This document shows, piece by piece, positions 1 through 12,841 of a stretch of 14,015 bases of DNA. Numbering within the stretch: position 1 is the first letter of the stretch; each line of letters opens with the position of its first letter. Origin of the DNA: a bacterium. Its GTDB lineage: Bacteria; JAMOTN01. The translations under genes and the position numbers were made by a program. A model generated the notes under the pieces. It did not search any database and was not told the origin of the DNA. It worked only from the letters and a program-made list of their open reading frames with translations. The stretch is taken from NCBI GenBank assembly GCA_027062325.1, contig JAMOTN010000002.1:1-14015 (forward strand), in the 5' to 3' direction.

Positions 1-508
1 TTTCGTAAAATTCGCGTGGCAAAGCATAAAGGTATACATGCTCTGGAATTGTTTGATGAAAAGCAGTATCAAATACTCCAACCTGTGGAACATCAGGCAA
101 AAGTTTGGTTATAGCCTCAATCCCTGCAAGATTCGGCGGATTATGAAGAGGAGCAAGTGTGATACACTCTTTTAACTTCTCAATAACCTCTTCCGTTATC
201 TTCACAGAACTTGCAAACTTTTCTCCTCCATGAACTACACGATGACCCACTGCCGAAATCTCTGACAAATCCTTTATAACACCCTTTTCTTCATCTACTA
301 TTACCTCTAGGATTCTCTGGATAGCCTGTTCGTGATCCTTAGCTTCAACTTCAAACTTGTACTCGTTATCTTGAGTTTTGTGCTTTACAAAAGCATCATC
401 TTTCCCAATTCTATCCACTATTCCCCTACACAACACTTTTTCCCCTTCCATATCAATTATCTGGTACTTTGCAGAAGAGCTTCCACAGTTCAAAACAAGT
501 ATTTTCAC
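1..508 (-). CDS. ackA: acetate kinase, N-terminal part (3' end cut by window edge)
   Basis: Interconverts acetate plus ATP and acetyl phosphate plus ADP in the cytoplasm, the last ATP-yielding step of acetate fermentation. The 169 visible codons open with MKILVLNCGSSSAKY, the phosphate-1 motif of the acetate/butyrate kinase (ASKHA) fold. HRVVHGG at residues 89-95, LHNPPN at 121-126 and FDTAFH at 146-151 follow. R90, H122 and D147 match the positions of the catalytic Arg, His and Asp of Methanosarcina acetate kinase, as I recall them; the remaining catalytic residues lie beyond the left edge. FDTAFH and the PREFYE end favour acetate kinase over butyrate kinase. The start is GTG at 506-508, 7 bases after a GGGGGG tract. 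About 200 non-coding bases separate it from the upstream HEAT gene on the same strand, so it probably has its own promoter. No pta is visible. Confidence 0.95.
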   Translation of the reverse strand, partial: MKILVLNCGSSSAKYQIIDMEGEKVLCRGIVDRIGKDDAFVKHKTQDNEYKFEVEAKDHEQAIQRILEVIVDEEKGVIKDLSEISAVGHRVVHGGEKFASSVKITEEVIEKLKECITLAPLHNPPNLAGIEAITKLLPDVPQVGVFDTAFHQTIPEHVYLYALPREFYE

Positions 509-706: not shown

Positions 707-1345
707 CTAGGTGCTAAACCTTGGTGCAAGCCAAATCTCATATGCCAATTCTCTCACTTTAAAAGAAAAAACCACACTCTTTACCAAAGTACGCAATCTT
801 TCAACATCATGATAACTGCACTTTGCCTTCAAAAGCGTTTTCAAAAGTATGTAAACTATTTCTTCATCCGTCTCTTTCTCCACCTTATCAAGTATCCACT
901 CCTTCACTGCCTCTTTTTCAACAATTATTGCCTTTAAGATAGCAGAAAGCTTTCCCTTAGAAGAAGCCTCATACATTCTCTCCAAATACTCTACTGTCTT
1001 TTCAGGATCCCACAAAGACAACACCTTGAAACTGGCTGCAACCACTCTTCTATCTTTGGAATTCAAACCCTTTTGAATTATCTGGCAATCTCTTGCTGGA
1101 TCTCCAATAACTCCCAAAGCTTCTATTGCATTTGCCCTCACTCGAACATCCTTGTGATAAGCCAAAATTCGCGCCTGCCCCGCAAATTCTTTTAACCTAA
1201 ATTCCCTCACCACTCCCAGTGCAAAAGCCTTAACAAACGGCTCCTTCCAATTCAAAAGATTCTCCAGTTTCTCAACATCAACCTTTCCATCTTCTCGTAT
1301 CACAGATCCCCTTAAAAAACCAATCTTCTTTCTCTTAAACTCCAC
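707..1345 (-). CDS. HEAT-repeat alpha-solenoid protein (212 aa)
   Basis: A small soluble protein made almost wholly of paired amphipathic helices. The clearest HEAT units lie at about residues 33-115: the stretch starting KDVRVRANAIEALGVIGDP has the usual D-x-x-V-R-x-x-A-x-x-A-L-G pattern, followed by a second unit with RRVVAASFKVL. The C-terminal half (about 120-212) is also predicted helical but degenerate. HEAT solenoids bind proteins and have no catalysis of their own, and I see no enzymatic motif, signal peptide or membrane segment. The start is GTG at 1343-1345 with GAGG four bases upstream; an in-frame GTG 15 codons later, after AGGGG, is an alternative. It lies 33 bases downstream of the larger HEAT gene and is probably the last gene of the purD-clp-HEAT transcript. 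A partner or adaptor role beside the Clp-like ATPase is inferred from context. Confidence 0.8.
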   Translation of the reverse strand: MEFKRKKIGFLRGSVIREDGKVDVEKLENLLNWKEPFVKAFALGVVREFRLKEFAGQARILAYHKDVRVRANAIEALGVIGDPARDCQIIQKGLNSKDRRVVAASFKVLSLWDPEKTVEYLERMYEASSKGKLSAILKAIIVEKEAVKEWILDKVEKETDEEIVYILLKTLLKAKCSYHDVERLRTLVKSVVFSFKVRELAYEIWLAPRFST

Positions 1346-1378
1346 AGTTCCTCACTTCCACCAAACACTTTTAACAAA

Positions 1379-3313
1379 CTACCTAAAAAACTCCGCTACT
1401 TTTCTCAACTCTTCATTCTCCAACCTTTCAATTTTTCTGAGAACGAGAGGATTTTCCTTTATTACTGCCCCCAACTTATCTTTAACCACAACATCCTCTG
1501 CCTCTTTCCACCACATCACAAACTTTTCTATATCTTCGTTCGCACATCTTAACAATGCCTTTGCCGTATACTCTCCTCCCACCTTAAATGGTGCTCCTTC
1601 AACTTTTGCCAGCTCTGATACATCAAGAACCTTGAAGAAAAAGTATATGGAGGCTGCAACCATCATGGGGCTGTCACTCTTGAAAACCTCTCTCATGCGT
1701 TCTATTCTGAATTCGTCTGGATTTTCCGCTAAAACCGATGCCACCCAAAGAGAAAAATCAAAACTTTCTGCTTCAAGTGCAACTATCAGAGAATCTATTG
1801 CAATAGGAGTTCCAATCTTTCCAAGAGCAGTGGCTGCATACCTTCTAACCCACTCATCTGTATCGTTCAACATCACATCTATCAACTTGTCTGTCGCCTT
1901 CTCATAACGAATCATACTCAGTCCATATGCCGCAAGCTGTCTTTCTTCCCTATTCCCATGAATTAACTTGTTCAACAACACATCCGGATACCTAGGCCCA
2001 ACATCCTCAAGTACTCTCTTGGCCCAGAATCTGATATTCTCATCCTGAAGTTGTATGTAACGCAGAAGTTCAATCAGTACAACCGGCCCAAGTTTCTTCA
2101 GACTCTCTGCCGCAGCAGATCTTACTATCCACTCAGGATCACCAAGTGCTTCTATCAAGGCACGCACAGCCCTCTCGTCACGGGTCTCTCCAAGTGCAAT
2201 AGCCGCATGCTTCCTTATCAACTTTTTATCGCTCTTTATCAAGTTTATAAGCGCAGGAACACTTTCTTCCCCAATTTCTCCCAAAACGCTTGTAATCCAG
2301 TAAATCTCGGACCCTGTCGCCTCCCAAAGAGCATTTACCAAGTCTTCTACCGCTTTACCACCAAGACGCACCAAAGCTTTAGCTGCTTCTTTCTTTACAA
2401 GCCAAACGCTATCTTTTAACCTCTCAATCAAAGGCTTAATAGCCTCTGCATACCCACTCTCTCCTAAAAAGTGGGCCGCAAGTATTCTCATCTCACTGTC
2501 AGGATGTGATAGCAATTCTATAAGAGGTCTAAGTTTCTTTCTTCCCAACCTATCTAAAACCTTCTTGACCCATATGTAAAGTTCTTCTTTTCCCTCTTTA
2601 AGAACAACCAAAATCGGCTCAACTATCATTTCTCCCATTTTAGCTAGAGCATCAGTTACCGCCTCCCTCACACTCCACACTGGATCCAGCAATGCTTTGA
2701 CTAAATATCTGATAACTGCAGGATTCTCCGACTCTGATAAAGCCTCCGCTGCCATAGCCTTTAAGCGACTCTCCGAAAAAGAAAGAACTCTTATAAGGAG
2801 TTTTACACCTTGGTTTCCCCCTCGAGCAAAGTATCTGAACAGCCAATATAGTTTATTGTAAGAGGACTTCTTTAAAGCAAGCTTTGCCTCTTCAAATGCC
2901 AAATCCTCCAAAACTATGAGAGAACGAACAGCCTCATTACATACCAACCAATCCTCATCCTCAAGCATCGAAATCAAAATTTTGGCGCTCTCTTTGGCTT
3001 TGACTTTACCAAGCGCCGTAGCCGTCCACTGACGAACGGTAGCAGCGCTATCTTTTGCATAACGTACAAGAAGCTTAAAAGCCTCTGGAGTTCCAATATA
3101 TGCTAGTGTATTTATAGCCCAGAAAACCTTATCTTCATTTTCCCTTTTTTCAATGACCTCTTTCAATTTAGGAAGAGCAGAGACACCATAATTATTAGCA
3201 ACTGCAAGCGCTGCCTGCCTCCTTTCAAACCACTTAGGAGAAGAAAATTTCTCTATCAATTTTTCTAAAGACAACTTCGACAAATTTTCCATCTCACTTC
3301 CTGAAACCACCAT
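1379..3313 (-). CDS. large HEAT-repeat protein with a three-HEAT super-repeat (644 aa)
   Basis: A long alpha-solenoid. About sixteen HEAT units fill residues 10-530. They fall into a regular super-repeat of three units: tryptophans of one unit type fall at W65, W157, W248, W339, W430 and W523, and those of a second type, in motifs such as DPVWSVR, DSVWLVK and DPEWIVR, at W122, W213, W304, W395 and W488. Residues from about 530 to 644 are a different, mostly helical tail containing KFVMWWKEAED. No signal peptide, membrane segment or catalytic motif is seen. I chose ATG at 3311-3313 because GGAGGT lies 9 bases upstream; a GTG at 3361 would add 16 residues but has its SD only 2 bases away. The upstream clp-like gene ends 57 bases before this start, so the two are probably cotranscribed. 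A scaffold or substrate-recruiting role for that ATPase is inference. Confidence 0.85.
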   Translation of the reverse strand: MVVSGSEMENLSKLSLEKLIEKFSSPKWFERRQAALAVANNYGVSALPKLKEVIEKRENEDKVFWAINTLAYIGTPEAFKLLVRYAKDSAATVRQWTATALGKVKAKESAKILISMLEDEDWLVCNEAVRSLIVLEDLAFEEAKLALKKSSYNKLYWLFRYFARGGNQGVKLLIRVLSFSESRLKAMAAEALSESENPAVIRYLVKALLDPVWSVREAVTDALAKMGEMIVEPILVVLKEGKEELYIWVKKVLDRLGRKKLRPLIELLSHPDSEMRILAAHFLGESGYAEAIKPLIERLKDSVWLVKKEAAKALVRLGGKAVEDLVNALWEATGSEIYWITSVLGEIGEESVPALINLIKSDKKLIRKHAAIALGETRDERAVRALIEALGDPEWIVRSAAAESLKKLGPVVLIELLRYIQLQDENIRFWAKRVLEDVGPRYPDVLLNKLIHGNREERQLAAYGLSMIRYEKATDKLIDVMLNDTDEWVRRYAATALGKIGTPIAIDSLIVALEAESFDFSLWVASVLAENPDEFRIERMREVFKSDSPMMVAASIYFFFKVLDVSELAKVEGAPFKVGGEYTAKALLRCANEDIEKFVMWWKEAEDVVVKDKLGAVIKENPLVLRKIERLENEELRKVAEFFR

Positions 3314-3370
3314 ATTAGAATTACCTCCAGCACTTTGGCTTTCCCAGATTAAACAACTCACATCCTCCCT

Positions 3371-4813
3371 CTACTCTTTTTGTGGCTCAACATCAGGTGA
3401 AGGTTGTGGCTTTATAGGCTTTTCATCCCTCTTTTTATCCTTTCTTCCCCCTTCCTTTGGAGGTGAGAATATTGCTCCTCCTTTTCCTTTACCAGATCCA
3501 CCGGGACCTTTTTTGTAAAGCTTAAATCTTATGCGCCCACGTTTAGAATCAACAGAACATGTGATAACATCACCACGCGAATACTTACCGGCTATTATCT
3601 CCTCTGCCAGAGGTGCTTGAACATGCTTTTGAACAACACGGCGCAAAGGACGCGCTCCGTATTTTGGATCAAAACCTCGCTCTACCAAGAACTCTTTTAC
3701 CTTTTTAGGCACACGCAACTCCATCCCCAAATTTTCGCGCAATCTAACAAGCACTTCTTCCTCTAACATTATGTCTACAATCTTCAGCATATCCTCCTTA
3801 GATAGAGGATTAAACACAACTATTTCATCAACACGGTTTATAAACTCGGGAGGAAACACCTTTTCAAGTGCCTTAATAGTCTCATCTTCCCTAACCTCAT
3901 CAGTAACTTTGTGAGTTCCAAAACCTATTGCGCGCTTTATCTCCTCGAGCTTCGCCACACCAACATTCGAAGTCATAATTATAACAGCCTCTCTAAATGA
4001 AACCTTTTCTCCCTTAGCATCGGTTAAAACTCCATCTTCCAAAATCTGAAGCAGTATGTTGTGAACCTTTTGGTGGGCTTTCTCTATTTCATCAAACAGA
4101 ACAACTGAGTGCGGCTTGGCTTTGACTGCCTCTGTAAGCTGTCCTCCTTCTTGGTATCCAACATATCCCGGAGGAGCTCCTATGAGCTTTGCATATTCGT
4201 GTGCCTGAGCATACTCTGAACAGTCAATTCTTATAAGCTCATCCTCACTTCCAAATAAGAACTCTGCTAGAGCCTTAGCAAGAGCTGTCTTTCCAACACC
4301 GGTTTGCCCTGCAAATATGAAGCTTCCTATGGGACGCCGTGGATTTCTCAACCCAACATAAGCACGCCTCACTGCCTGCGCTAGAACTTCAATTGCTCTA
4401 TCTTGACCTATTATCTTCTTCTTGAGGTGCTCCTCCATGTTTATGAGGCGCTTCAATGTATCTTCTGGCTCCTCATCCTCTTGACCCACAATTGCAAGCT
4501 TTTTATCCTCTTCGTCCTCCTCAACCTCTATGCTTACACGCTTTATATCAAGCTGTGGATTTACTTTTATGCACAAGTTGTAAAGCTCCTGCTCAGCAAT
4601 ATCTGCAAACAAAGAATAGTCCTTCTTGTTTTTCAAAACAGGCTCTATTTCCTGGAAGTAATCCACCACACAAACGGTAATAACCAATCGCTTGTAAGAC
4701 TTTTTGTCGTTTATTTTTGCATCTTTGAATATTCTCTTTACCTCCTCATCACTAAGCACTTTTATCTTCACAAATCTGTCTAAAGACTCACAGTATTTCA
4801 TTACAACTTTCAC
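3371..4813 (-). CDS. single-ring Clp-type AAA+ ATPase (ClpC/ClpB D2-like) with unrecognised N-domain
   Basis: A 480-residue ATP-driven protein-threading machine. Residues 127-435 match the second AAA+ module of ClpB/ClpC: IIGQDRAIEVLAQAV, Walker A GQTGVGKT (169-176), pore loop GYVG (216-219, Y217), Walker B VVLFDEIEKAH (D241, E242), sensor-1 Asn N283, Arg finger in PEFINRVDE (R327), sensor-2 GARPLRR (386-392), then the D2-small domain. IGF at 296-298 sits where ClpC carries its ClpP-docking loop. There is no first AAA ring, no Clp_N repeat and no zinc-binding ClpX domain. Residues 1-115 form a domain I do not recognise, ending in an acidic linker (EVEEDEEDKK, 96-105). The last 45 residues are a Gly/Lys/Pro-rich tail, probably disordered. 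I chose GTG at 4811-4813, 9 bases after GGGGGGG; a TTG at 4864 would add 17 residues. The two HEAT genes follow closely downstream. Confidence 0.9.
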   Translation of the reverse strand: MKVVMKYCESLDRFVKIKVLSDEEVKRIFKDAKINDKKSYKRLVITVCVVDYFQEIEPVLKNKKDYSLFADIAEQELYNLCIKVNPQLDIKRVSIEVEEDEEDKKLAIVGQEDEEPEDTLKRLINMEEHLKKKIIGQDRAIEVLAQAVRRAYVGLRNPRRPIGSFIFAGQTGVGKTALAKALAEFLFGSEDELIRIDCSEYAQAHEYAKLIGAPPGYVGYQEGGQLTEAVKAKPHSVVLFDEIEKAHQKVHNILLQILEDGVLTDAKGEKVSFREAVIIMTSNVGVAKLEEIKRAIGFGTHKVTDEVREDETIKALEKVFPPEFINRVDEIVVFNPLSKEDMLKIVDIMLEEEVLVRLRENLGMELRVPKKVKEFLVERGFDPKYGARPLRRVVQKHVQAPLAEEIIAGKYSRGDVITCSVDSKRGRIRFKLYKKGPGGSGKGKGGAIFSPPKEGGRKDKKRDEKPIKPQPSPDVEPQKE

Positions 4814-4927: not shown

Positions 4928-6205
4928 CTAAACATTTTGCCTCTTTTCTATATCCTCCCCTATATCCTTTCGGTAATACATTCCATCAAAGTATATCTCT
5001 TTCAACCGCCTATAGGCATTTTCTCTCGCTTCTGCCACATTTTTACCCTTACCTATCACATTTACAACCCTTCCTCCATCCGTAACATACGAATCTTTAT
5101 CTTTTTTGACAGCCGCCAAATAAATTAAGCTTCCATCCTTTTCTTCCAAACTCAACCCCTTTATTTTAAAGCCCTTTCGGTACTTTATTGGGTAACCTTC
5201 AGAAACTGTCACAACTCCAACTGTCACAAAATCCTCCCACTCTATTTCTATCTCATCTAAGCGTTTTTCCATACAATGTCTTATTATCAACCCAAGATCT
5301 GTCTTCAAACGAGGAAGAATAACTTGAGTTGCTGGATCGTTAAACCTAACGTTTAAATCCACAACCTTAGGGCCTCTTTCTGTAACCACAACATGCAAAA
5401 ACATCGGCCCAACATAAGGGGTTCCCTCTTTCTTTAAAGCCTCAAGCAACGGAGCTATAATTTCATCTTTTATTCGTAGCATATCTGCTTTATCAACCAT
5501 AAATGACGGAGAAAGTGCTCCCATTCCACCCGTATGCGGTCCCCTATCCCCATCCATTGCTCGCTTATAAACCACCGCGTCTTCTCCAATCACAAAATTT
5601 TCTCCATCCGAGAAAACAAGTATCCCTACTTGCACCCCTTGTAAAAACTCTTCAATCACAACCCTGCTTCCAGCATCTCCAAAAGCCCGATCTTTCAATA
5701 TTACACTAACTGCAAGCTTGGCTGTAATTTCATCCCTTGCTATTATCAACCCCTGCCCACCTTCTGCACCATCTGCTTTCACCACAACCGGCATACTCAT
5801 TGTATCGATGTATTCAAACGCTTCCTGTTCATCGTCAAATACCCCGTATTCAGGAACTGGGATTTCATATCGCCTCATTAAACTTTTAGCAAATGACTTA
5901 CTTAGCTCAAGTTGAGCTGCTCTAAAAGACGGCGCAAAAGCGTATATTCCATTTTCTTTTAAAACATCCGGCAACCCCATAGTGAGTGCAACTTCCGGAT
6001 TTATTATCACAACATCCACACCATTTTCCTTGCAAAATTTAACTATATCTTCAGTATCTTCCGCCCACATCGGCACATTTCCTGCAATTTCTGCAGTGGC
6101 AGCATTTCCACGTGCACACCATACTTTATCAACTTCGCTGCTTTTTACAAGTTTATCTACAATAGCATGTTCACGCGCACCTTTTCCTAGCACCAGTACC
6201 CTCAT
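4928..6205 (-). CDS. purD: phosphoribosylamine-glycine ligase (PurD), divergent
   Basis: PurD joins 5-phosphoribosylamine and glycine using ATP to give GAR, step two of purine synthesis. The 425 residues match the family length and order: N-domain GKGAREH (8-13), central ATP-grasp domain with VVKADG (141-146), VVIEEFL (182-188), DGDRGPHTGGMGA (218-230) and LNVRF (284-288), then the C-domain with DGGRV (376-380) and a YYRKDIG end. Several usually conserved positions differ: GSGGREH is GKGAREH, GKGV is GQGL (150-153), GPNTGG is GPHTGG, RFGDPETQ is RFNDPATQ (287-294), and the HAGT motif is replaced by LAAV (363-366). The metal-ligand Glu before the invariant Asn is Asp (D283). I chose ATG at 6203-6205 over the adjacent GTG because GGGGG lies 7 bases upstream. 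No other pur gene is in view. It may be a true but fast-evolving PurD or a paralogue with a changed substrate. Confidence 0.88.
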   Translation of the reverse strand: MRVLVLGKGAREHAIVDKLVKSSEVDKVWCARGNAATAEIAGNVPMWAEDTEDIVKFCKENGVDVVIINPEVALTMGLPDVLKENGIYAFAPSFRAAQLELSKSFAKSLMRRYEIPVPEYGVFDDEQEAFEYIDTMSMPVVVKADGAEGGQGLIIARDEITAKLAVSVILKDRAFGDAGSRVVIEEFLQGVQVGILVFSDGENFVIGEDAVVYKRAMDGDRGPHTGGMGALSPSFMVDKADMLRIKDEIIAPLLEALKKEGTPYVGPMFLHVVVTERGPKVVDLNVRFNDPATQVILPRLKTDLGLIIRHCMEKRLDEIEIEWEDFVTVGVVTVSEGYPIKYRKGFKIKGLSLEEKDGSLIYLAAVKKDKDSYVTDGGRVVNVIGKGKNVAEARENAYRRLKEIYFDGMYYRKDIGEDIEKRQNV

Positions 6206-6460
6206 CACTTTACCCCCTAATCTTTAATCTTTAGTTATTGTCAATTATCCCCAATTCAGCTTCTACATTCTCCGCATACATTTAAACAGCTTACTTTCAT
6301 TAACCTCACATCATTAACTTTTATCGACGAACTTAGCATTAATCTTTCCACCCCAATTTCAATAATCAAAAATCTTGCCTCTTTTTAGTTTTTCCAATAC
6401 GATTATAACAATAGGTAGGTTGTAAACTAATTATCCTAATTTCTTTAGGAGGTGGCAGGA
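6206..6460. other. divergent intergenic promoter region between purD and galT-like 1
   Basis: About 255 AT-rich bases with no supportable ORF separate two divergent operons, so promoters for both must lie here or nearby. The sequence TTATAA at 6403-6408 gives a TATAAT-type -10 on the minus strand (complement of 6402-6407, perfect match) and TATAAC on the plus strand (6404-6409), so the two promoters could overlap. No convincing -35 accompanies the minus-strand box. The remaining sequence shows no obvious riboswitch or strong hairpin. Confidence 0.5.
6375..6403 (+). promoter_or_regulatory. candidate sigma-70 type promoter of the galT-glgA cluster
   Basis: TTGCCT at 6375-6380 (four of six consensus bases) is followed after 17 bases by TACGAT at 6398-6403 (four of six). 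It ends about 58 bases before the galT-like 1 start. The overlapping TATAAC at 6404-6409 is a better -10 box but has no good -35 at 16-18 bases. The spacing is right, but both boxes are weak. Confidence 0.35.
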
Positions 6461-7468
6461 GTGCCGGTACTTAGAAAAGATCCTGTTGTTAAAAGATGGG
6501 TAATAATAAAGGACGATCAGCCATTTAAACTCTCTCAACTTCAAGTTGAAGACACCACCCCAAAAGGGGATACCTCAAAATGCCCATTCTGCCCAGGGCA
6601 TGAGGAAATGACTCCTCCAGAAGTTCTAGCTTATCGCTCAAAAGATTCAGAACCAAACAAAGAAGGCTGGGAAGTGCGTGTAATCCCAAATAAATTCGCA
6701 GCTTTGAAAAACGAAGGAGAATTAAATCGCAAACTTTTTGGAGTTTACGATAAAATGAACGGAGTTGGAGCTCACGAAGTTATCATAGAAACCCCTGAAC
6801 ATTTTGAGTCATTCTATACATATCCGGTAAGCAAAGTTGAACAGATAATTTGGGCATTCGTAGATAGATATGATGATCTGCGCAAGGACAAGAGGCTCCG
6901 CTACATCCAAATCTTCAAGAATCACGGTAAAGCAGCAGGAGCTTCTCTTGAACATCCACACTGTCAAATAATCGCAACACCAGTTGTTGTCAAACGTGTT
7001 ATGGAAGAGATTGACGGTTCAAAAGAGTATTACATCTATCATGACAGCTGTCTTTTCTGTGATATGATTGATCAAGAAATTGCAGAAGGTATAAGAGTTA
7101 TAGAGAAAAATTCCCATTTTGTCGCATTTTGTCCATTCGCATCCAGGTTTCCTTTTGAAATTTGGGTACTTCCACTAAAACACAGGGCAGACTTTGGCCA
7201 TATAAGTGAGGAGGAAGTAAGAAGCCTAGCAGAGATAATGAGCAACGTTTTTAAACGTCTAGGAAGAGCTCTCTCTAATCCTCCTTACAACTTTATAATT
7301 CACACATCCCCTGTTAATTCACCAGGAATCGATTGCAGTAAATTTTACCACTGGCATATTGAAATCATGCCAAGAGTTATCAAAACTGCTGGTTTTGAAT
7401 GGGCGAGTGGTTTCTATACCAATCCGTTATCACCTGAGGAGGCAGCAAAACTCCTCAGAAACGCATAA
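6461..7468 (+). CDS. GalT-family nucleotidyltransferase 1 (HPH active site; UDP-hexose or ADP-glucose type)
   Basis: A 335-residue HIT-superfamily enzyme that moves a nucleoside monophosphate between a nucleoside diphosphate sugar and a sugar phosphate (GalT), or to phosphate (ADP-glucose phosphorylase). CPFC (41-44), H114 in TPEH and H165 fit the structural zinc site. The active site is EHPHCQ (164-169) with H167 as the expected nucleophile and Q169 retained. A second CxxC (C197, C200) and YHWHIEIMPR (296-305) follow. E. coli GalT lacks this second CxxC, whereas the Arabidopsis GalT-like ADP-glucose phosphorylase has two Cys-containing zinc sites, as I recall. I chose GTG at 6461 because AGGAGG (6447-6452) lies 8 bases upstream; an earlier GTG at 6452 overlaps that SD. 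It is first in the cluster with glgA, galT-like 2 and pgm, so an ADP-glucose role is plausible; the substrate cannot be read from sequence. Confidence 0.88.
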   Translation: MPVLRKDPVVKRWVIIKDDQPFKLSQLQVEDTTPKGDTSKCPFCPGHEEMTPPEVLAYRSKDSEPNKEGWEVRVIPNKFAALKNEGELNRKLFGVYDKMNGVGAHEVIIETPEHFESFYTYPVSKVEQIIWAFVDRYDDLRKDKRLRYIQIFKNHGKAAGASLEHPHCQIIATPVVVKRVMEEIDGSKEYYIYHDSCLFCDMIDQEIAEGIRVIEKNSHFVAFCPFASRFPFEIWVLPLKHRADFGHISEEEVRSLAEIMSNVFKRLGRALSNPPYNFIIHTSPVNSPGIDCSKFYHWHIEIMPRVIKTAGFEWASGFYTNPLSPEEAAKLLRNA

Positions 7469-7472
7469 TGAT

Positions 7473-7540
7473 AATATTTTTGCCAATCTAACTTAATGCC
7501 GATCTAATCTAAGGCAAAAATTGCTTAGATTAAAAATATT
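7473..7540 (+). promoter_or_regulatory. structured leader of glgA (candidate cis-regulatory RNA)
   Basis: Between the galT-like 1 stop and the glgA SD (AGGAGG, 7542-7547) the sequence can form a long stem. AATATTTTT (7473-7481) and AATCTAA (7485-7491), separated by a GCC bulge, pair with the continuous TTAGATTAAAAATATT (7525-7540): 16 base pairs ending one base before the SD. A competing 8-bp stem pairs TTTTTGCC (7477-7484) with GGCAAAAA (7513-7520). Both need 7477-7481, so they exclude each other. Three direct copies of ATCTAA occur in the same interval. The pairings are seen in the sequence; regulation of glgA is inferred. The long stem is nearly all A-U and would be weak in a thermophile. 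Confidence 0.4.
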
Positions 7541-7556
7541 TAGGAGGGTGATAAAC

Positions 7557-8990
7557 ATGAAAGTTTTGATAGTCTCGTCAGAAGTTGTGCCTTTTGCTAA
7601 AACAGGAGGCCTTGCTGACGTTGCAGGTGCTCTTCCAAAAGCACTTAAAGCAAAAGGTGTTGATGTTCGCGTCGTAATGCCGAAGCATGATTGCCCAAAT
7701 TGCAAATGCGAAGGTGAATATTTGACTCACTTTGGAGTAGAGTTTGATGGTAGAACAGAAACTGCTGTCGTTTTAGAGACAAGTATTGACGGTAAAATTC
7801 CAGTTTACATCATTGATAATAAAAATTTCTTCTCTCGACCCGGACTTTATGGCGAAAGTGGTAAAGATTATGATGATAACGCTTTGAGATTTGGCTTTTT
7901 CTCAAAAGCAGTACTTGAACTATGCTTAAATATGGATTTTATTCCAGACGTTTTGCACATAAACGATTGGCAGAGCGCAATGGTTGCCGTGTACAAGAAG
8001 GTATTTTATGAAGACAAGATAAGCTCTAAGGTTCTTCTTACTATCCACAATCTACAATACCAAGGAGTATTTGATCCACTCTTTTTACCACGTTTGGGGT
8101 TAGGCTGGGACTTGTTTGATATGGAAAAGCTCGAATTCTATGGGAAGATTAATTTCTTAAAAGGAGCAATAGTATTTTCCGATGCTATAAATACTGTTTC
8201 TCCAACCTATGCAAAAGAGATACAAACTCCTGAGTTTGGTTACGGACTTGATGGAATACTAAAACACCTAAATTACAAGCTTTACGGTATTCTAAATGGC
8301 ATAGATTACGATGTATGGAATCCAAAAACAGATCCTCTTATTTGGGAAAATTACGATGTTCAAACGCTGGAGAAAAAGCAAATAAATAAAAAAGAGCTTG
8401 CAAAATATACAAATCTTCCTGAAAATCGTATGTTCTTTGGTTTAGTTTCTCGCCTAGTTGATCAAAAGGGCTTGGATATACTTATTCCCGCAGTAAAAGA
8501 GATGATTAAGTACACAGACGCATGCTTTGTCTTTTTGGGTAGCGGACAGCCCGAATATGAGGAAGAGGTTGCTAAGTTGAGTAAGGAATTTTCCGACAGA
8601 GTGTGGGCAAAGATTGGCTATGACAATGAATTAGCGCACAAGATTTATGTAGGCGTAGATGCTTTCTTAGTTCCTTCTAAATTTGAACCATGTGGACTTA
8701 CTCAGATGATAAGCATGCGCTATGGTACTCCTCCAGTTGTCAGAAATACTGGTGGACTTGCTGATACTGTTGTGGATCCAAACGAAGACAGACCAGAAGC
8801 ACCATGCGGTATTAAATTTGATGATTATACTGCTCATGCATGTTTTGCTGCTATGAAACGTGCCTATGAAATTTACACATCCTCACCATCAACGTGGCGT
8901 GATTGGATGACAGCAGGAATGAGAAAAGACTTCTCCTTCTCATCATCTGCAGAGGAGTACATAAAACTTTACAAGAAGATCTCCTCTTAA
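7557..8990 (+). CDS. glgA: glycogen (starch) synthase, GT5 family
   Basis: Transfers glucose from ADP-glucose (sometimes UDP-glucose) to the non-reducing end of an alpha-1,4-glucan. The 477 residues match bacterial GlgA (E. coli 477) and cover the whole GT-B fold: KTGGLADVAGALPKAL at 15-30 (the KxGGL nucleotide-sugar motif), HINDWQ (134-139), TIHNLQYQG (162-170), NGIDYDVWNP (247-256), SRLVDQKGLD (298-307, with R299 and K304), and KFEPCGLTQ (375-383), whose E377 is the catalytic Glu. TGGLADTV (398-405) completes the donor site. An unusual Cys-rich patch, HDCPNCKCEG (44-53), replaces the usual loop near the N-domain. I chose ATG at 7557 because AGGAGG lies 9 bases upstream; the upstream in-frame TTG at 7521 would begin inside the leader hairpin. 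It lies between two GalT-family genes, which probably supply or recycle its nucleotide sugar. No glgC is visible. Confidence 0.96.
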   Translation: MKVLIVSSEVVPFAKTGGLADVAGALPKALKAKGVDVRVVMPKHDCPNCKCEGEYLTHFGVEFDGRTETAVVLETSIDGKIPVYIIDNKNFFSRPGLYGESGKDYDDNALRFGFFSKAVLELCLNMDFIPDVLHINDWQSAMVAVYKKVFYEDKISSKVLLTIHNLQYQGVFDPLFLPRLGLGWDLFDMEKLEFYGKINFLKGAIVFSDAINTVSPTYAKEIQTPEFGYGLDGILKHLNYKLYGILNGIDYDVWNPKTDPLIWENYDVQTLEKKQINKKELAKYTNLPENRMFFGLVSRLVDQKGLDILIPAVKEMIKYTDACFVFLGSGQPEYEEEVAKLSKEFSDRVWAKIGYDNELAHKIYVGVDAFLVPSKFEPCGLTQMISMRYGTPPVVRNTGGLADTVVDPNEDRPEAPCGIKFDDYTAHACFAAMKRAYEIYTSSPSTWRDWMTAGMRKDFSFSSSAEEYIKLYKKISS

Positions 8991-9052
8991 TTCTAAAATT
9001 GAGACAACATTCATGATTGCTGGTAAAATTTAAATATTGAGGAGTGATAAAT

Positions 9053-10090
9053 ATGCCAGAGTTGAGGTTTGATCCTATAACGCGAAGATGGGTTATTATA
9101 GCAACAGAGCGTGCTAAGCGCCCCTCTGACTTCGGAGGGCATTCTCCCACAGCTGGATCTGAGGTAGAATCAACCGATTTTCACCCTGATTGTCCCTTTT
9201 GTGAGGGGAATGAAGCTAAAACACCTCCAGAAGTTTTAGCTTTTAGAAAACCTGGAACAAAACCTAATGAACCTGGATGGTGGGTACGCGTTTTTCCGGA
9301 TATAAGTCCGCTAGTTTCAACAAATACCCCAATAAATAAGCGCGGTTATGGAATATACGATGAAATTTCAGGATACGGTTATCACGAAATAGTAGCTGAA
9401 ACTCCAAAGCATTTAGCGGATCTTTCTGATCTTGACGATGGGCACGTGTATGAAGTGCTATGGGCTTACAAAGAGAGGATGATCAAAATCAAAACAACAG
9501 ATCCAAATATAAAGCAGTTTATAATTGTCAGAAATTTTGGCGTAGAAGCAGGTGAACGTTTTGTTATAAGGCACAGCCACTCTCATATAATAGGTCTTCC
9601 AATAATTACAAAGCGAATAAATGATGAATTGATTGGTAGCAGTATCTTCTACAGATTCCACGAAAGATGCATATTCTGCGACATAATAACAAATGAACTT
9701 GAGAGTAAGGAACGCATAGTATTGGAAAGTGATCACTTCGTGGTAATAAGTTTTTACGCTGCACGCGTTCCTTTTGAGCTTCACATATTACCAAAACGAC
9801 ACAATCCGTTTTACGAAACCTCTACAGAGGAAGAACTTCGGGACTTAGCTAAGGTTATTCGGACAACTTTGATAAAGCTCAAGAAAGTTGTAAATCCTGC
9901 GTACAACATGATTCTGCATACAGCTCCTTACTACAGTCCAAATCCTGTATATCCAGTGGAAGAAATTTACCATTGGCATATCGAAATAATGCCTCGTCTT
10001 ACCAAAGCAGCTGGATTCGAGTGGGGAACTGGTTTCCATATCAATCCAGTTCCACCTGAGAAGGCTGCCCTCTACTTGGCTGAGGCTTAG
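9053..10090 (+). CDS. GalT-family nucleotidyltransferase 2 with altered active site (HSHSH)
   Basis: A 345-residue paralogue of the galT-like gene upstream of glgA, with the same frame of motifs: CPFC (47-50), TPKH with H120, a second CxxC (C206, C209), YHWHIEIMPR (306-315) and AGFEWGTGFH (320-329). It differs at the active site. Where the first paralogue has EHPHCQ, this protein reads RHSHSH (173-178), so the Gln that contacts the phosphate in GalT is His (H178). This gives the H-x-H-x-H-x-x motif of HIT hydrolases. The preceding loop (AGERFVIR, 166-173) is two residues longer and lacks the usual GAS. The putative nucleophile H176 is kept. I chose ATG at 9053 with GAGGAG 8 bases upstream; a GTG at 9044 overlaps that SD. 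It sits 62 bases after glgA and 46 before pgm. It may act on ADP- or UDP-sugars as transferase, phosphorylase or hydrolase. Confidence 0.85.
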   Translation: MPELRFDPITRRWVIIATERAKRPSDFGGHSPTAGSEVESTDFHPDCPFCEGNEAKTPPEVLAFRKPGTKPNEPGWWVRVFPDISPLVSTNTPINKRGYGIYDEISGYGYHEIVAETPKHLADLSDLDDGHVYEVLWAYKERMIKIKTTDPNIKQFIIVRNFGVEAGERFVIRHSHSHIIGLPIITKRINDELIGSSIFYRFHERCIFCDIITNELESKERIVLESDHFVVISFYAARVPFELHILPKRHNPFYETSTEEELRDLAKVIRTTLIKLKKVVNPAYNMILHTAPYYSPNPVYPVEEIYHWHIEIMPRLTKAAGFEWGTGFHINPVPPEKAALYLAEA

Positions 10091-10136
10091 TATAAATCTG
10101 GTTGAATTTTAATTTTAAGATTATGGAGGGATGGAG

Positions 10137-11561
10137 ATGCTTAAATTCGGAACAGATGGATGGAGAGCTATCATAGCAGATGAATACACATTTTCAAACT
10201 TGAGAATAGTATCGGAAGCTGTAGCACGCTATGTTGATTCAAAAGGAGCACAAGATAAAGGAGTGCTGATAGGATACGATTGCAGGTTTCTTTCCGACAA
10301 ATTTGCTCGTGAAGTAGCTGAGGTATTCGCAGCACATGGAATAAAGGTCAAAATTTCTGATTCGGTCATTCCAACACCTGTTCTTGCATTTGCTGTTAAG
10401 CATTTCAGAGCTTTCGGAGCAGTTATGATAACTGCATCTCATAACCCTCCAGAGTACAACGGATTCAAATTTATCCCTGAGTATGCAGGTCCAGCCTTTC
10501 CTGAAATAACAAAGGTCATCGAGGAAAATATTAAACAGATATTAGAAAATGAGACAAAAATAGACAAAATTCCCTTCGAAGAGGCAAAAGTTAAGGGATT
10601 GGTTGAAGAATTTAATATTCAAGAAATCTATTTAGAACACATAAAATCCATTGTTGATGTGGATGCTATAAAATCGCTCGGCTCTAAAGTTATCGTTGAT
10701 CCACTTTTCGGGGCAGGGGCAGGTTATATTGAAAAATTCTTAACCTCTATAGGCGTTGAGGTAAAGTCCATGCACAATTGGAGGGATCCTCTATTCGGTG
10801 GTGGTATGCCAGAGCCTGCAGAGAAGTTTTTAACCCCACTTAAAAATGCAGTTCTTACAAATAAAGCTATAATTGGCCTTGCAATGGATGGAGATGCAGA
10901 TAGATTCGGCGTCATAGACTCGAAAGGTGAGTACATCACTCCAAACTACTTAATAACCATTTTGGCAATGCATCTTATAAGATATAAAAAGTTCACTGGT
11001 TCTCTAGTAAGAACAGTTGCCACAACCCATCTCATAGACAGAATTGGAGAAAAGTACGGCATAACTGTTCACGAAGTTCCTGTTGGCTTTAAGTACATCG
11101 CAGAGAAGATGCTTTCTGAAAAAGTTATCATAGGCGGCGAAGAGAGTGGAGGTCTGAGTGTTCTAGGCCATATACCTGAAAAGGATGGAATTCTGGCAGA
11201 TCTATTAGCTCTTGAAGTTGTTGCTGTTGAGAGAAAACCGCTATCAGATGTACTATTTGAAATTATGAGGGAAATCGGCACTCTCTATTCAAAACGCATA
11301 AATCTTCCAGTAACGGAAGAAGCTAAGGAAGGAGTTATATCATCTCTCAAGTCAAATCCTCCTGAGTATGTGGCTAATATTAAGGTTTTGAACGTTACAA
11401 CCATTGACGGCGTTAAATTGATTCTCAGAGACGGCAGCTGGATTTTGATGCGTCCATCCGGAACAGAACCTGTTGTGAGAATATATGCGGAAGCCACAAC
11501 ATTTGAAACTTTAAATAGGCTAATCAAATGGGGGGAAGAGATATTTGCAAAGTATAAATAA
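10137..11561 (+). CDS. phosphoglucomutase/phosphomannomutase, alpha-D-phosphohexomutase family
   Basis: Interconverts hexose 1- and 6-phosphates through a phosphoserine enzyme and a bisphosphate intermediate. The 474 residues carry all four domains: FGTDGWR at the N-terminus, the phosphoserine loop TASHNPPEYNG (99-109, S101), metal loop DGDADR (251-256, three Asp), sugar-specificity loop GGEESGG (333-339) and phosphate-binding RPSGTEP (439-445) in domain 4. GEESGG is shared by PGM and PMM/PGM enzymes, so glucose versus mannose cannot be settled; the glgA neighbourhood favours glucose. I chose ATG at 10137 because GGAGG (10125-10129) lies 7 bases upstream; an ATG at 10131 directly abuts that SD. 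It probably links Glc-6-P to the Glc-1-P used or made by the GalT-like enzymes. It follows galT-like 2 by 46 bases and precedes the HAMP protein gene by 29. Confidence 0.95.
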   Translation: MLKFGTDGWRAIIADEYTFSNLRIVSEAVARYVDSKGAQDKGVLIGYDCRFLSDKFAREVAEVFAAHGIKVKISDSVIPTPVLAFAVKHFRAFGAVMITASHNPPEYNGFKFIPEYAGPAFPEITKVIEENIKQILENETKIDKIPFEEAKVKGLVEEFNIQEIYLEHIKSIVDVDAIKSLGSKVIVDPLFGAGAGYIEKFLTSIGVEVKSMHNWRDPLFGGGMPEPAEKFLTPLKNAVLTNKAIIGLAMDGDADRFGVIDSKGEYITPNYLITILAMHLIRYKKFTGSLVRTVATTHLIDRIGEKYGITVHEVPVGFKYIAEKMLSEKVIIGGEESGGLSVLGHIPEKDGILADLLALEVVAVERKPLSDVLFEIMREIGTLYSKRINLPVTEEAKEGVISSLKSNPPEYVANIKVLNVTTIDGVKLILRDGSWILMRPSGTEPVVRIYAEATTFETLNRLIKWGEEIFAKYK

Positions 11562-11590: not shown

Positions 11591-12223
11591 ATGAGTGAAG
11601 TAAGCGAGAAGGAAAAGATCAAAGAATCCTCAATGTCAGAAGCTATGAAGAGATTTGTAATGAGGAGAAATTATCTAGTCAAATCAGGTTATCAGTTTAA
11701 GATTATAATGTCACTTGTTTTACTTTTTGCTCTTATTTCACTTGTAGCAGTTATAAATCTTTATTTTGTTGGATGGAGAGTAACTGCAACAATAACCGGC
11801 ACAAACGATCCATCTGTGTGGCATTCGCTTATCAAACTATTTTTTGATAGATATATAAACCTTATAATAGGAGTTGCTCTCATAGACATATTAGTTGTAA
11901 TTCTCCTCGGAATACTATTTTCTCATCAATTTGCAGGACCTATTCACAAACTTGAAAACTTCTTCTTAAAACTTAAAAATACCGGTAAAGCCGAAAAACT
12001 TCAATTTAGAAAAGAGGATAACCTTGATGATCTGGCAGATAGTGTGAACTCATTTACCGAAAGATTAAATCTTATAACGGAAGAGCTGAAGTTTTTAATA
12101 AAAGCTCTTGAAACCGATGATATTAAAGGAGCAAAAGAAAGAGCTGCTCTTATTAAAAAGATTGCACCTGAATGGTTTGGAGTAATTAAATCTGAGGATA
12201 AGGAGGCTGAAGGAACAGCGTAA
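11591..12223 (+). CDS. two-TM membrane protein with HAMP domain and no output domain
   Basis: A 210-residue inner-membrane protein. A charged cytoplasmic N-terminus (1-36) leads to TM1 (about 37-60), a short outer loop of about 28 residues (61-88), TM2 (about 89-110) and a HAMP-like region (111-162). The latter opens with FSHQFAGPIHKLENF, holding the conserved Pro after the membrane and the first heptad helix; the second helix is EDNLDDLADSVNSFTERLN. The last 48 residues are helical and charged, with no kinase, methyl-accepting or cyclase domain. Such HAMP-only proteins occur in several phyla, and their function is unclear to me. Normally HAMP relays signals between a sensor and an output module, so a partner protein is likely. 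AGGAGG (11577-11582) lies 8 bases before the ATG. It follows pgm by 29 bases, and its 3' end forms the ascending arm of a terminator. Confidence 0.85.
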   Translation: MSEVSEKEKIKESSMSEAMKRFVMRRNYLVKSGYQFKIIMSLVLLFALISLVAVINLYFVGWRVTATITGTNDPSVWHSLIKLFFDRYINLIIGVALIDILVVILLGILFSHQFAGPIHKLENFFLKLKNTGKAEKLQFRKEDNLDDLADSVNSFTERLNLITEELKFLIKALETDDIKGAKERAALIKKIAPEWFGVIKSEDKEAEGTA

Positions 12224-12268: not shown

Positions 12269-12841
12269 ATGTCTATTGAAAAGTTCAAAGTGGGTTGCAA
12301 AGTGGTCCACCCCGATCATGGAGCAGGTAGTATCAAATCAGTGAGCGAAGAAAATTTCTTTGGCTTCTCGAAAACCTATCTGATAATAGAGTTTTTTTCA
12401 ACAGGTTCTGTTGTAAAAATTCCAGTTGACGAAGTTTTGAATGGAAATATTCCCTTGCGTGAAGTCTTGCCGCGCAATATCCTGGAAGAAAAATTAAAGC
12501 TCTTGGGACAGGACGTAGGAGTCTTCAAAGAAAGCTACCAACGTTATCTTCTGGATGTAAAAAGTGGCTCTATTGATAAATTAATTGAAGTCATAAATGA
12601 ACTGTGGTTTAAACGTACTAAACGTCAGCTTCACTCCAGAGAAAACAAACTTCTAAAAGAAGCCATAAACTTACTTGCAAGCGAAATTTCTATAGCCTTT
12701 GACGTCATGCAAGATGAAGCACGTAGTATGATACTTCAAGCTGTTGGGGCAAGTGAAGAGGATGCAGAGAATTTATTTGATACAACTTTGAAGAATGCAC
12801 GTGGAATAAAGTGGGTCTTGAAAGAGAACGCTTCAAGTTAA
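12269..12841 (+). CDS. CarD/CdnL-family transcription regulator (190 aa)
   Basis: CarD/CdnL proteins bind the beta subunit of RNA polymerase and stabilise the open promoter complex, often at rRNA promoters. Residues 5-70 form the CarD/TRCF interaction domain: FKVGCKVVHPDHGAGSI, a Tyr-Leu-Ile-Ile-Glu strand and VVKIPVDEVLNGNIPLREV. Residues 75-145 are the helical DNA-binding part, with a Tyr-rich helix, the ELWFKRTKRQL segment and SRENKLLKEAINLLASEIS. About 45 extra residues at the C-terminus (about 146-190) go beyond the usual length of roughly 160; they are helical with an acidic patch, and I do not recognise them. GGGAGG (12255-12260) lies 8 bases before the ATG, and a second GGAGG is 3 bases away. 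The gene lies after a terminator, so it probably has some transcription of its own, but the short gap leaves little room for a promoter outside the terminator region. Confidence 0.9.
   Translation: MSIEKFKVGCKVVHPDHGAGSIKSVSEENFFGFSKTYLIIEFFSTGSVVKIPVDEVLNGNIPLREVLPRNILEEKLKLLGQDVGVFKESYQRYLLDVKSGSIDKLIEVINELWFKRTKRQLHSRENKLLKEAINLLASEISIAFDVMQDEARSMILQAVGASEEDAENLFDTTLKNARGIKWVLKENASS

Follow-up and report, generated by a model that had tools for sequence, protein, structure and literature searches.

A putative subfamily of single-ring Clp-type unfoldases with a distinct N-domain in bacteria and viruses, and its association with HEAT-repeat and Rad52-family genes

A gene for a single-ring Clp-type ATPase followed by two genes for HEAT-repeat proteins raises the question of whether the three products form one protein-remodelling system, as the preliminary description of this locus had proposed, with the HEAT proteins presenting substrates to the ATPase through its unrecognised N-terminal domain, or whether the ATPase works independently of them. 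The window (the whole stretch of DNA that was analysed) is an entire contig of 14,015 nt from a 1.65-Mb, 84%-complete genome that has no close relative among the genomes compared. The minus strand carries, in this order, purD (phosphoribosylamine-glycine ligase, assigned by Pfam GARS and synteny; 4928..6208), the ATPase gene, here called N-AAA (GTG 4813 to stop 3371; 480 aa, or 476 aa from the ATG at 4801), HEAT1 (ATG 3313 to 1379; 644 aa), HEAT2 (GTG 1345 to 707; 212 aa) and ackA (acetate kinase, assigned by Pfam; 2..508, truncated by the contig end). On recheck, the previously described order and coordinates were exact, as were the spacers of 57 bases between N-AAA and HEAT1 and 33 bases between HEAT1 and HEAT2. 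Divergently from purD, on the plus strand at 6452-11561, galT, a glycogen synthase gene, a second galT and a phosphoglucomutase gene follow in series (a sugar-nucleotide/glycogen cluster, read by eye); beyond it lie a gene for a 210-aa two-helix membrane protein (11591-12223, plus strand) with a HAMP-like look and without a confident Pfam match, and one for a CarD-type regulator (12269-12841).

N-AAA has a single P-loop and matches Pfam AAA_2 (E = 7e-61; large domain at 3821..4336, minus strand) and ClpB_D2-small (E = 7e-24; 3560..3805). Its catalytic set is complete: the AAA_2 domain holds Walker A (4286-4309), the pore loop GYVG (4157-4168) and the DE of Walker B (4088-4093), and to these are added the sensor-1 N, the Arg finger in PEFINR, and sensor 2 in the GARPLRR of the small domain. 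The pore loop, both Walker motifs, both sensors and the Arg finger are invariant across the relatives. The Pfam search showed neither a Clp_N domain nor the zinc domain of ClpX. Thus, Pfam, the motifs and the single P-loop bear out the earlier view of a single-ring D2-type AAA+ module behind an unrecognised N-domain, and by its D2-type module, motifs and D2-small domain the protein is an AAA+ unfoldase of the Clp/Hsp100 type.

It remains below the curated cut-off of every named Clp family that it matched. As a ClpB it scores 392.6 bits (over residues 137-441) against a cut-off of 1232.1, and it has one P-loop, not two rings; as a ClpX it scores 34.6 bits against 370.75, and the zinc domain is missing from its Pfam matches; ClpA and ClpC are rejected by the lack of a second ring and of Clp_N. 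The D2 module scores highest against ClpB and ClpC, and about half of the AAA+ module is identical to two-ring Clp proteins from many genomes. With the D2 ring of ClpC and ClpA (B. subtilis ClpC, PDB 3j3t) it shares the GYVG pore loop and an IGF/VGF tripeptide, but the D1 ring, Clp_N and middle domain of those proteins are all absent, and the N-domain is unrelated. ClpX and HslU, the single-ring partners of ClpP and HslV, likewise combine one AAA+ ring with a small N-domain, and ClpX also has an IGF-type loop, but the sequence of N-AAA is not ClpX-type. ClpB/Hsp104 possesses a homologous D2 module, but ClpB has two rings and a loop without the tripeptide. Human CLPB/Skd3 (PDB matches at E ~1e-49) is similar in that a non-Clp domain precedes its one D2-type Clp ring, but it is a mitochondrial disaggregase with an ankyrin solenoid in cis, whereas residues 1-115 of N-AAA contain no repeat domain and are modelled as a 95-aa domain with four helices; the HEAT solenoids beside N-AAA are encoded by separate genes, and in one lineage only.

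We define N-AAA here by an N-domain placed directly before one Clp ring, an arrangement found in both bacteria and viruses. On balance, we consider that these proteins form a subfamily of single-ring Clp unfoldases not described before, built around one ring of the ClpC/ClpB-D2 type. In the open-access literature we found no description of such a protein, no paper on Clp in Riflebacteria and none pairing a phage Rad52 with a Clp ATPase.

The IGF loop docks ClpX and ClpA on ClpP (PMC9035409). In a phmmer alignment the segment RAIGFGTHK of the window protein falls on KYVGFNVQ of B. subtilis ClpC, which places IGF (3920..3928, minus strand) at the ClpP-docking position and gives N-AAA the hydrophobic-G-hydrophobic tripeptide of ClpP partners; ClpB has a shorter loop there and no such tripeptide. 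Bacterial N-AAA proteins read IGF or VGF, except those of the Riflebacteria family f119, which have PGF in a longer insert, so that docking may have been lost in this family. The viral tripeptide follows [LIVM]G[FI] in 19 of 21 sequences, the other two having AGF (L130) and TGF (L142). ClpP was found in all 12 bacterial genomes tested; as nearly all bacteria have ClpP, this adds little. In the window genome the ClpP gene (C51:943-1482) shares its contig with a further AAA_2 gene, which is probably clpX. One virus encodes a ClpP of its own (L144:9257-9901; PF00574, E = 4e-76), 3 kb downstream of N-AAA and a Rad52-family gene and on the same strand. Judged by the tripeptide and the presence of ClpP, N-AAA is probably coupled to this protease.

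Alternatively, N-AAA could be a ClpP-independent disaggregase or remodeller resembling CLPB/Skd3 or ClpB, the IGF loop being a relic of ClpC-like ancestry. CLPB/Skd3 is itself a single-ring disaggregase, and both the top scores of the D2 module against ClpB as well as ClpC and the PGF of f119 would agree with this, but viral sequences retain the tripeptide despite their great divergence, and canonical ClpB coexists with N-AAA in 9 of 13 genomes, where the need for a further disaggregase is not evident. We therefore regard this alternative as possible, but clearly less probable than a ClpP-coupled unfoldase. The coexistence also rules out N-AAA as a replacement for ClpB. In the 84%-complete window genome canonical ClpB was not found; the two-ring Clp of that genome (G000:C56, L001) is ClpC-like, with LGY in the ClpP loop.

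The N-domain itself (95 aa; 4517..4801, minus strand) is common to bacterial and viral relatives. Sequence searches of Pfam, PHROG and PDB with residues 1-115 yielded no family above the noise level. The AF2 model consists of small N-terminal strands and four helices, with a mean pLDDT of 81, up from 70 once viral rows were added to the alignment, and this gain is consistent with homology of the viral and bacterial domains. In PDB structural searches with two successive models, 3klu (Z 4.7, then 5.7) and 3fgx (Z 3.3, then 4.4) were the only ones among the matches listed to reach a middling range; a match to a family beyond that listing is possible. The better of them, YqbN (3klu), which we take to be an XkdN-like tail assembly chaperone, superimposes with an rmsd of 2.9 A over 75 aligned residues, but at 12% identity and a Z below 8 it serves as a lead only; for a phage tail assembly chaperone fold there was no profile match, and structural Z did not exceed 5.7. 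Apart from the AAA ring, the domain was seen in one MazG fusion, in L083, and likewise in a second match in G415. The fusion gene (L083:5810-7573), directly 3' of N-AAA, joins two N-domain copies to a MazG-like pyrophosphohydrolase; its later part looks frame-shifted, and sister genomes have only MazG after N-AAA.

Among 386 diverse genomes, an N-domain search yielded six besides the window genome, of which five had the full architecture, and an N-domain profile later confirmed these five. Scanning the GTDB species genomes brought up 34 loci, the majority from Wallbacteria, Riflebacteria/Ozemobacteria and UBP16/17, some with a Cloacimonadota label. Within the Riflebacteria/Wallbacteria phylum (G256, G118) the N-domain occurs in 35 of 39 genomes, including all 16 good ones, in one copy per genome except in G415, which has an extra separate N-domain gene. 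Thus, N-AAA is a core gene of this phylum. On a more distant branch (f92) it adjoins GroEL, as read by eye. Five contigs (L065, L074, L078, L080 and L082) are titled as Methylomirabilis, Erysipelotrichia or Cloacimonadota, while their N-AAA genes are phylum-typical; the Cloacimonadota-titled ones match genomes that taxonomy places with Riflebacteria, and the five titles are probably wrong or outdated.

With the bacterial N-domain as the query, neither the first viral scan nor the search of phage isolate records gave an N-domain match. When the N-domain model was compared with viral models in Foldseek, the single outstanding match was to an AAA protein from an uncultured phage (E = 6e-3, probability 1.00), and by sequence, in IMG/VR scans, viral relatives surfaced only with the AAA ring as bait. 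After removal of three repeats, we obtained 22 viral contigs encoding the N-domain and a single Clp ring; the domain usually occurs in two copies, compared with one in bacteria, and is matched at E values down to 4e-55 by a mixed profile and 1e-17 by a profile built from bacteria. These contigs are metagenomic and include several close relatives, with at least five divergent lineages among them. A protein of Xanthomonas phage XbC2, initially a near-full-length match, proved to be a 764-aa ClpA of the usual two-ring kind and was rejected. In one viral N-AAA of 1040 aa (L150:3610-6732, on the same contig as L318), an apparent intein splits the AAA module between KLIG and the pore loop.

Of the 22 viral loci, 19 have a Rad52-family gene directly upstream of N-AAA and in the same orientation. 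The corresponding number for other viral Clp loci, taken as the control, is 0 of 169, where Rad52s unlike those in the profile, which was built from eight N-AAA loci, could be missed. The gaps range from -41 to +28 bases, with one exception of 213, and PF04098 (Rad52) was above its cut-off in six of seven viral neighbours tested. Among the three remaining loci, a Toprim-DnaB primase-helicase gene precedes N-AAA in L131, and L142 carries an apparent recA, read by eye. No recognisable Rad52 was found in any of the 12 bacterial genomes searched for it, hence the viral client cannot simply be assumed for bacterial N-AAA. In an AU test a single clade for all N-AAA was not rejected (p = 0.60), and the likelihood was higher when they were held together; monophyly is thus permitted but not proven, and the branches are too long to fix direction or date.

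As to the HEAT genes, both proteins exceed the Pfam HEAT_2 gathering threshold of 27.7 bits (HEAT1, 216.9 bits, E = 3e-65; HEAT2, 47.9 bits, E = 2e-12). HEAT_2 matches number 53 in the window genome and 46-141 in relatives, so that a HEAT neighbour by itself says little. The order purD-AAA-HEAT1 was observed, besides the window, in families f205 (G256, G387), f262 (G388) and f265 (G419-421), with purD beyond the contig end in G387 (L057), where HEAT1 is also cut. A phosphoribosyltransferase-like gene stands between N-AAA and HEAT1 in G256 and G388; at the loci L046 (9631-10158) and L121 (9375-10073), where such a gene holds this place, purD comes before N-AAA, and with MazG in other families the nucleotide-metabolism neighbours of N-AAA number three. 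When window HEAT1 was searched in 14 genomes, the syntenic gene was by far the best match in all five syntenic genomes with a whole gene (G256, G388, G419, G420 and G421), with E values between 1e-102 and 1e-119 and ~530 aa aligned in register. In f261 purD-AAA is kept and the HEAT1 orthologue (E = 1.9e-73) lies on another contig beside other genes; outside these families only partial and much weaker matches were found. Families f259, f263 and f264 have an AAA-MazG arrangement (MazG named from sequence), and in f119 N-AAA is divergent from a TPR gene, in each case without a recognisable HEAT1; the TPR genes beside the ATPase in f119 and f259 are too weakly similar (22%, E = 1e-4) to be accepted as orthologues. 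HEAT2 has a counterpart in G256 only, a positional and weak one (39% over 69 aa), followed by ackA as in the window.

Chance does not explain why purD-AAA-HEAT1 keeps its order across deep lineages. In a quick tree the window diverges ahead of the phylum, which makes this order probably the ancestral state, with a single loss. Of the proposed three-gene system, the AAA-HEAT1 part stands as an old association; the rest does not, as HEAT2 is not conserved and HEAT1 is absent or displaced in other families. The ATPase is widespread without a HEAT1 neighbour (f119, f259, f263, f264, f92 and all viruses, with HEAT1 elsewhere in f261), which is largely the outcome that the preliminary description had named as refuting, and a fixed three-part system is not supported: the HEAT genes are old but dispensable companions. 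Since the N-domain is retained in genomes and viruses that have no HEAT1 beside the ATPase gene, docking of HEAT proteins is not its general function.

If, on the contrary, the neighbours had no functional meaning, then purD, HEAT1, ackA, MazG and TPR would be unrelated operon mates, and the complete change of neighbourhood between families would be expected; the retention of purD-AAA-HEAT1 over deep divergence and a viral Rad52 linkage far above the control make this rather improbable. A dedicated machine, in which both HEAT proteins dock on the N-domain and deliver clients to the ring, is less probable still: the conserved order with its likely ancestry, the true orthology of HEAT1 (no close second match) and the precedent of human CLPB/Skd3, which shows that one Clp ring can rely on a solenoid of repeats, there in cis (PMC9934407), speak for it, but N-AAA occurs in so many families and viruses without a linked or recognisable HEAT1, HEAT2 is not conserved, and HEAT genes are abundant.

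The reading we prefer, with somewhat better than even confidence, is that N-AAA is an unfoldase of the ClpX-like kind that has a new N-domain and is probably coupled to ClpP; it would act on recombination complexes in viruses and have HEAT1 as an optional candidate adaptor in some bacteria. Working most likely like ClpX, the putative hexamer would capture clients via the N-domain, thread them through the GYVG pore and pass them on, at least in part, to ClpP via the IGF loop. In viruses it would probably remodel Rad52-coated recombination or replication intermediates. In bacteria it would be a conserved housekeeping unfoldase, for which HEAT1, an ancient operon partner in the window lineage, could serve as a client adaptor, N-AAA being retained where HEAT1 is not.

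ClpX acts on the Mu transpososome, a parallel for the recycling of annealing proteins by an unfoldase. In the boldest version, which we consider unlikely as a whole, N-AAA would form a separate ClpP-coupled class with a virus-associated N-domain, having Rad52 as its regular viral partner, a core cellular role in the Riflebacteria/Wallbacteria phylum and its relatives, and a HEAT adaptor in trans. If so, the viral proteins would clear or reset Rad52-type annealing proteins on DNA, and the window lineage would use a HEAT solenoid in trans to select clients. Bacteria have a small and well-catalogued set of Clp partners for ClpP, and a single-ring subfamily that is fixed in a phylum and carried by viruses would add a class to this set. 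Its own N-domain would offer a handle on client choice by single-ring Clp machines, and the near-constant pairing with Rad52 makes the recycling of annealing proteins by a viral unfoldase directly testable.
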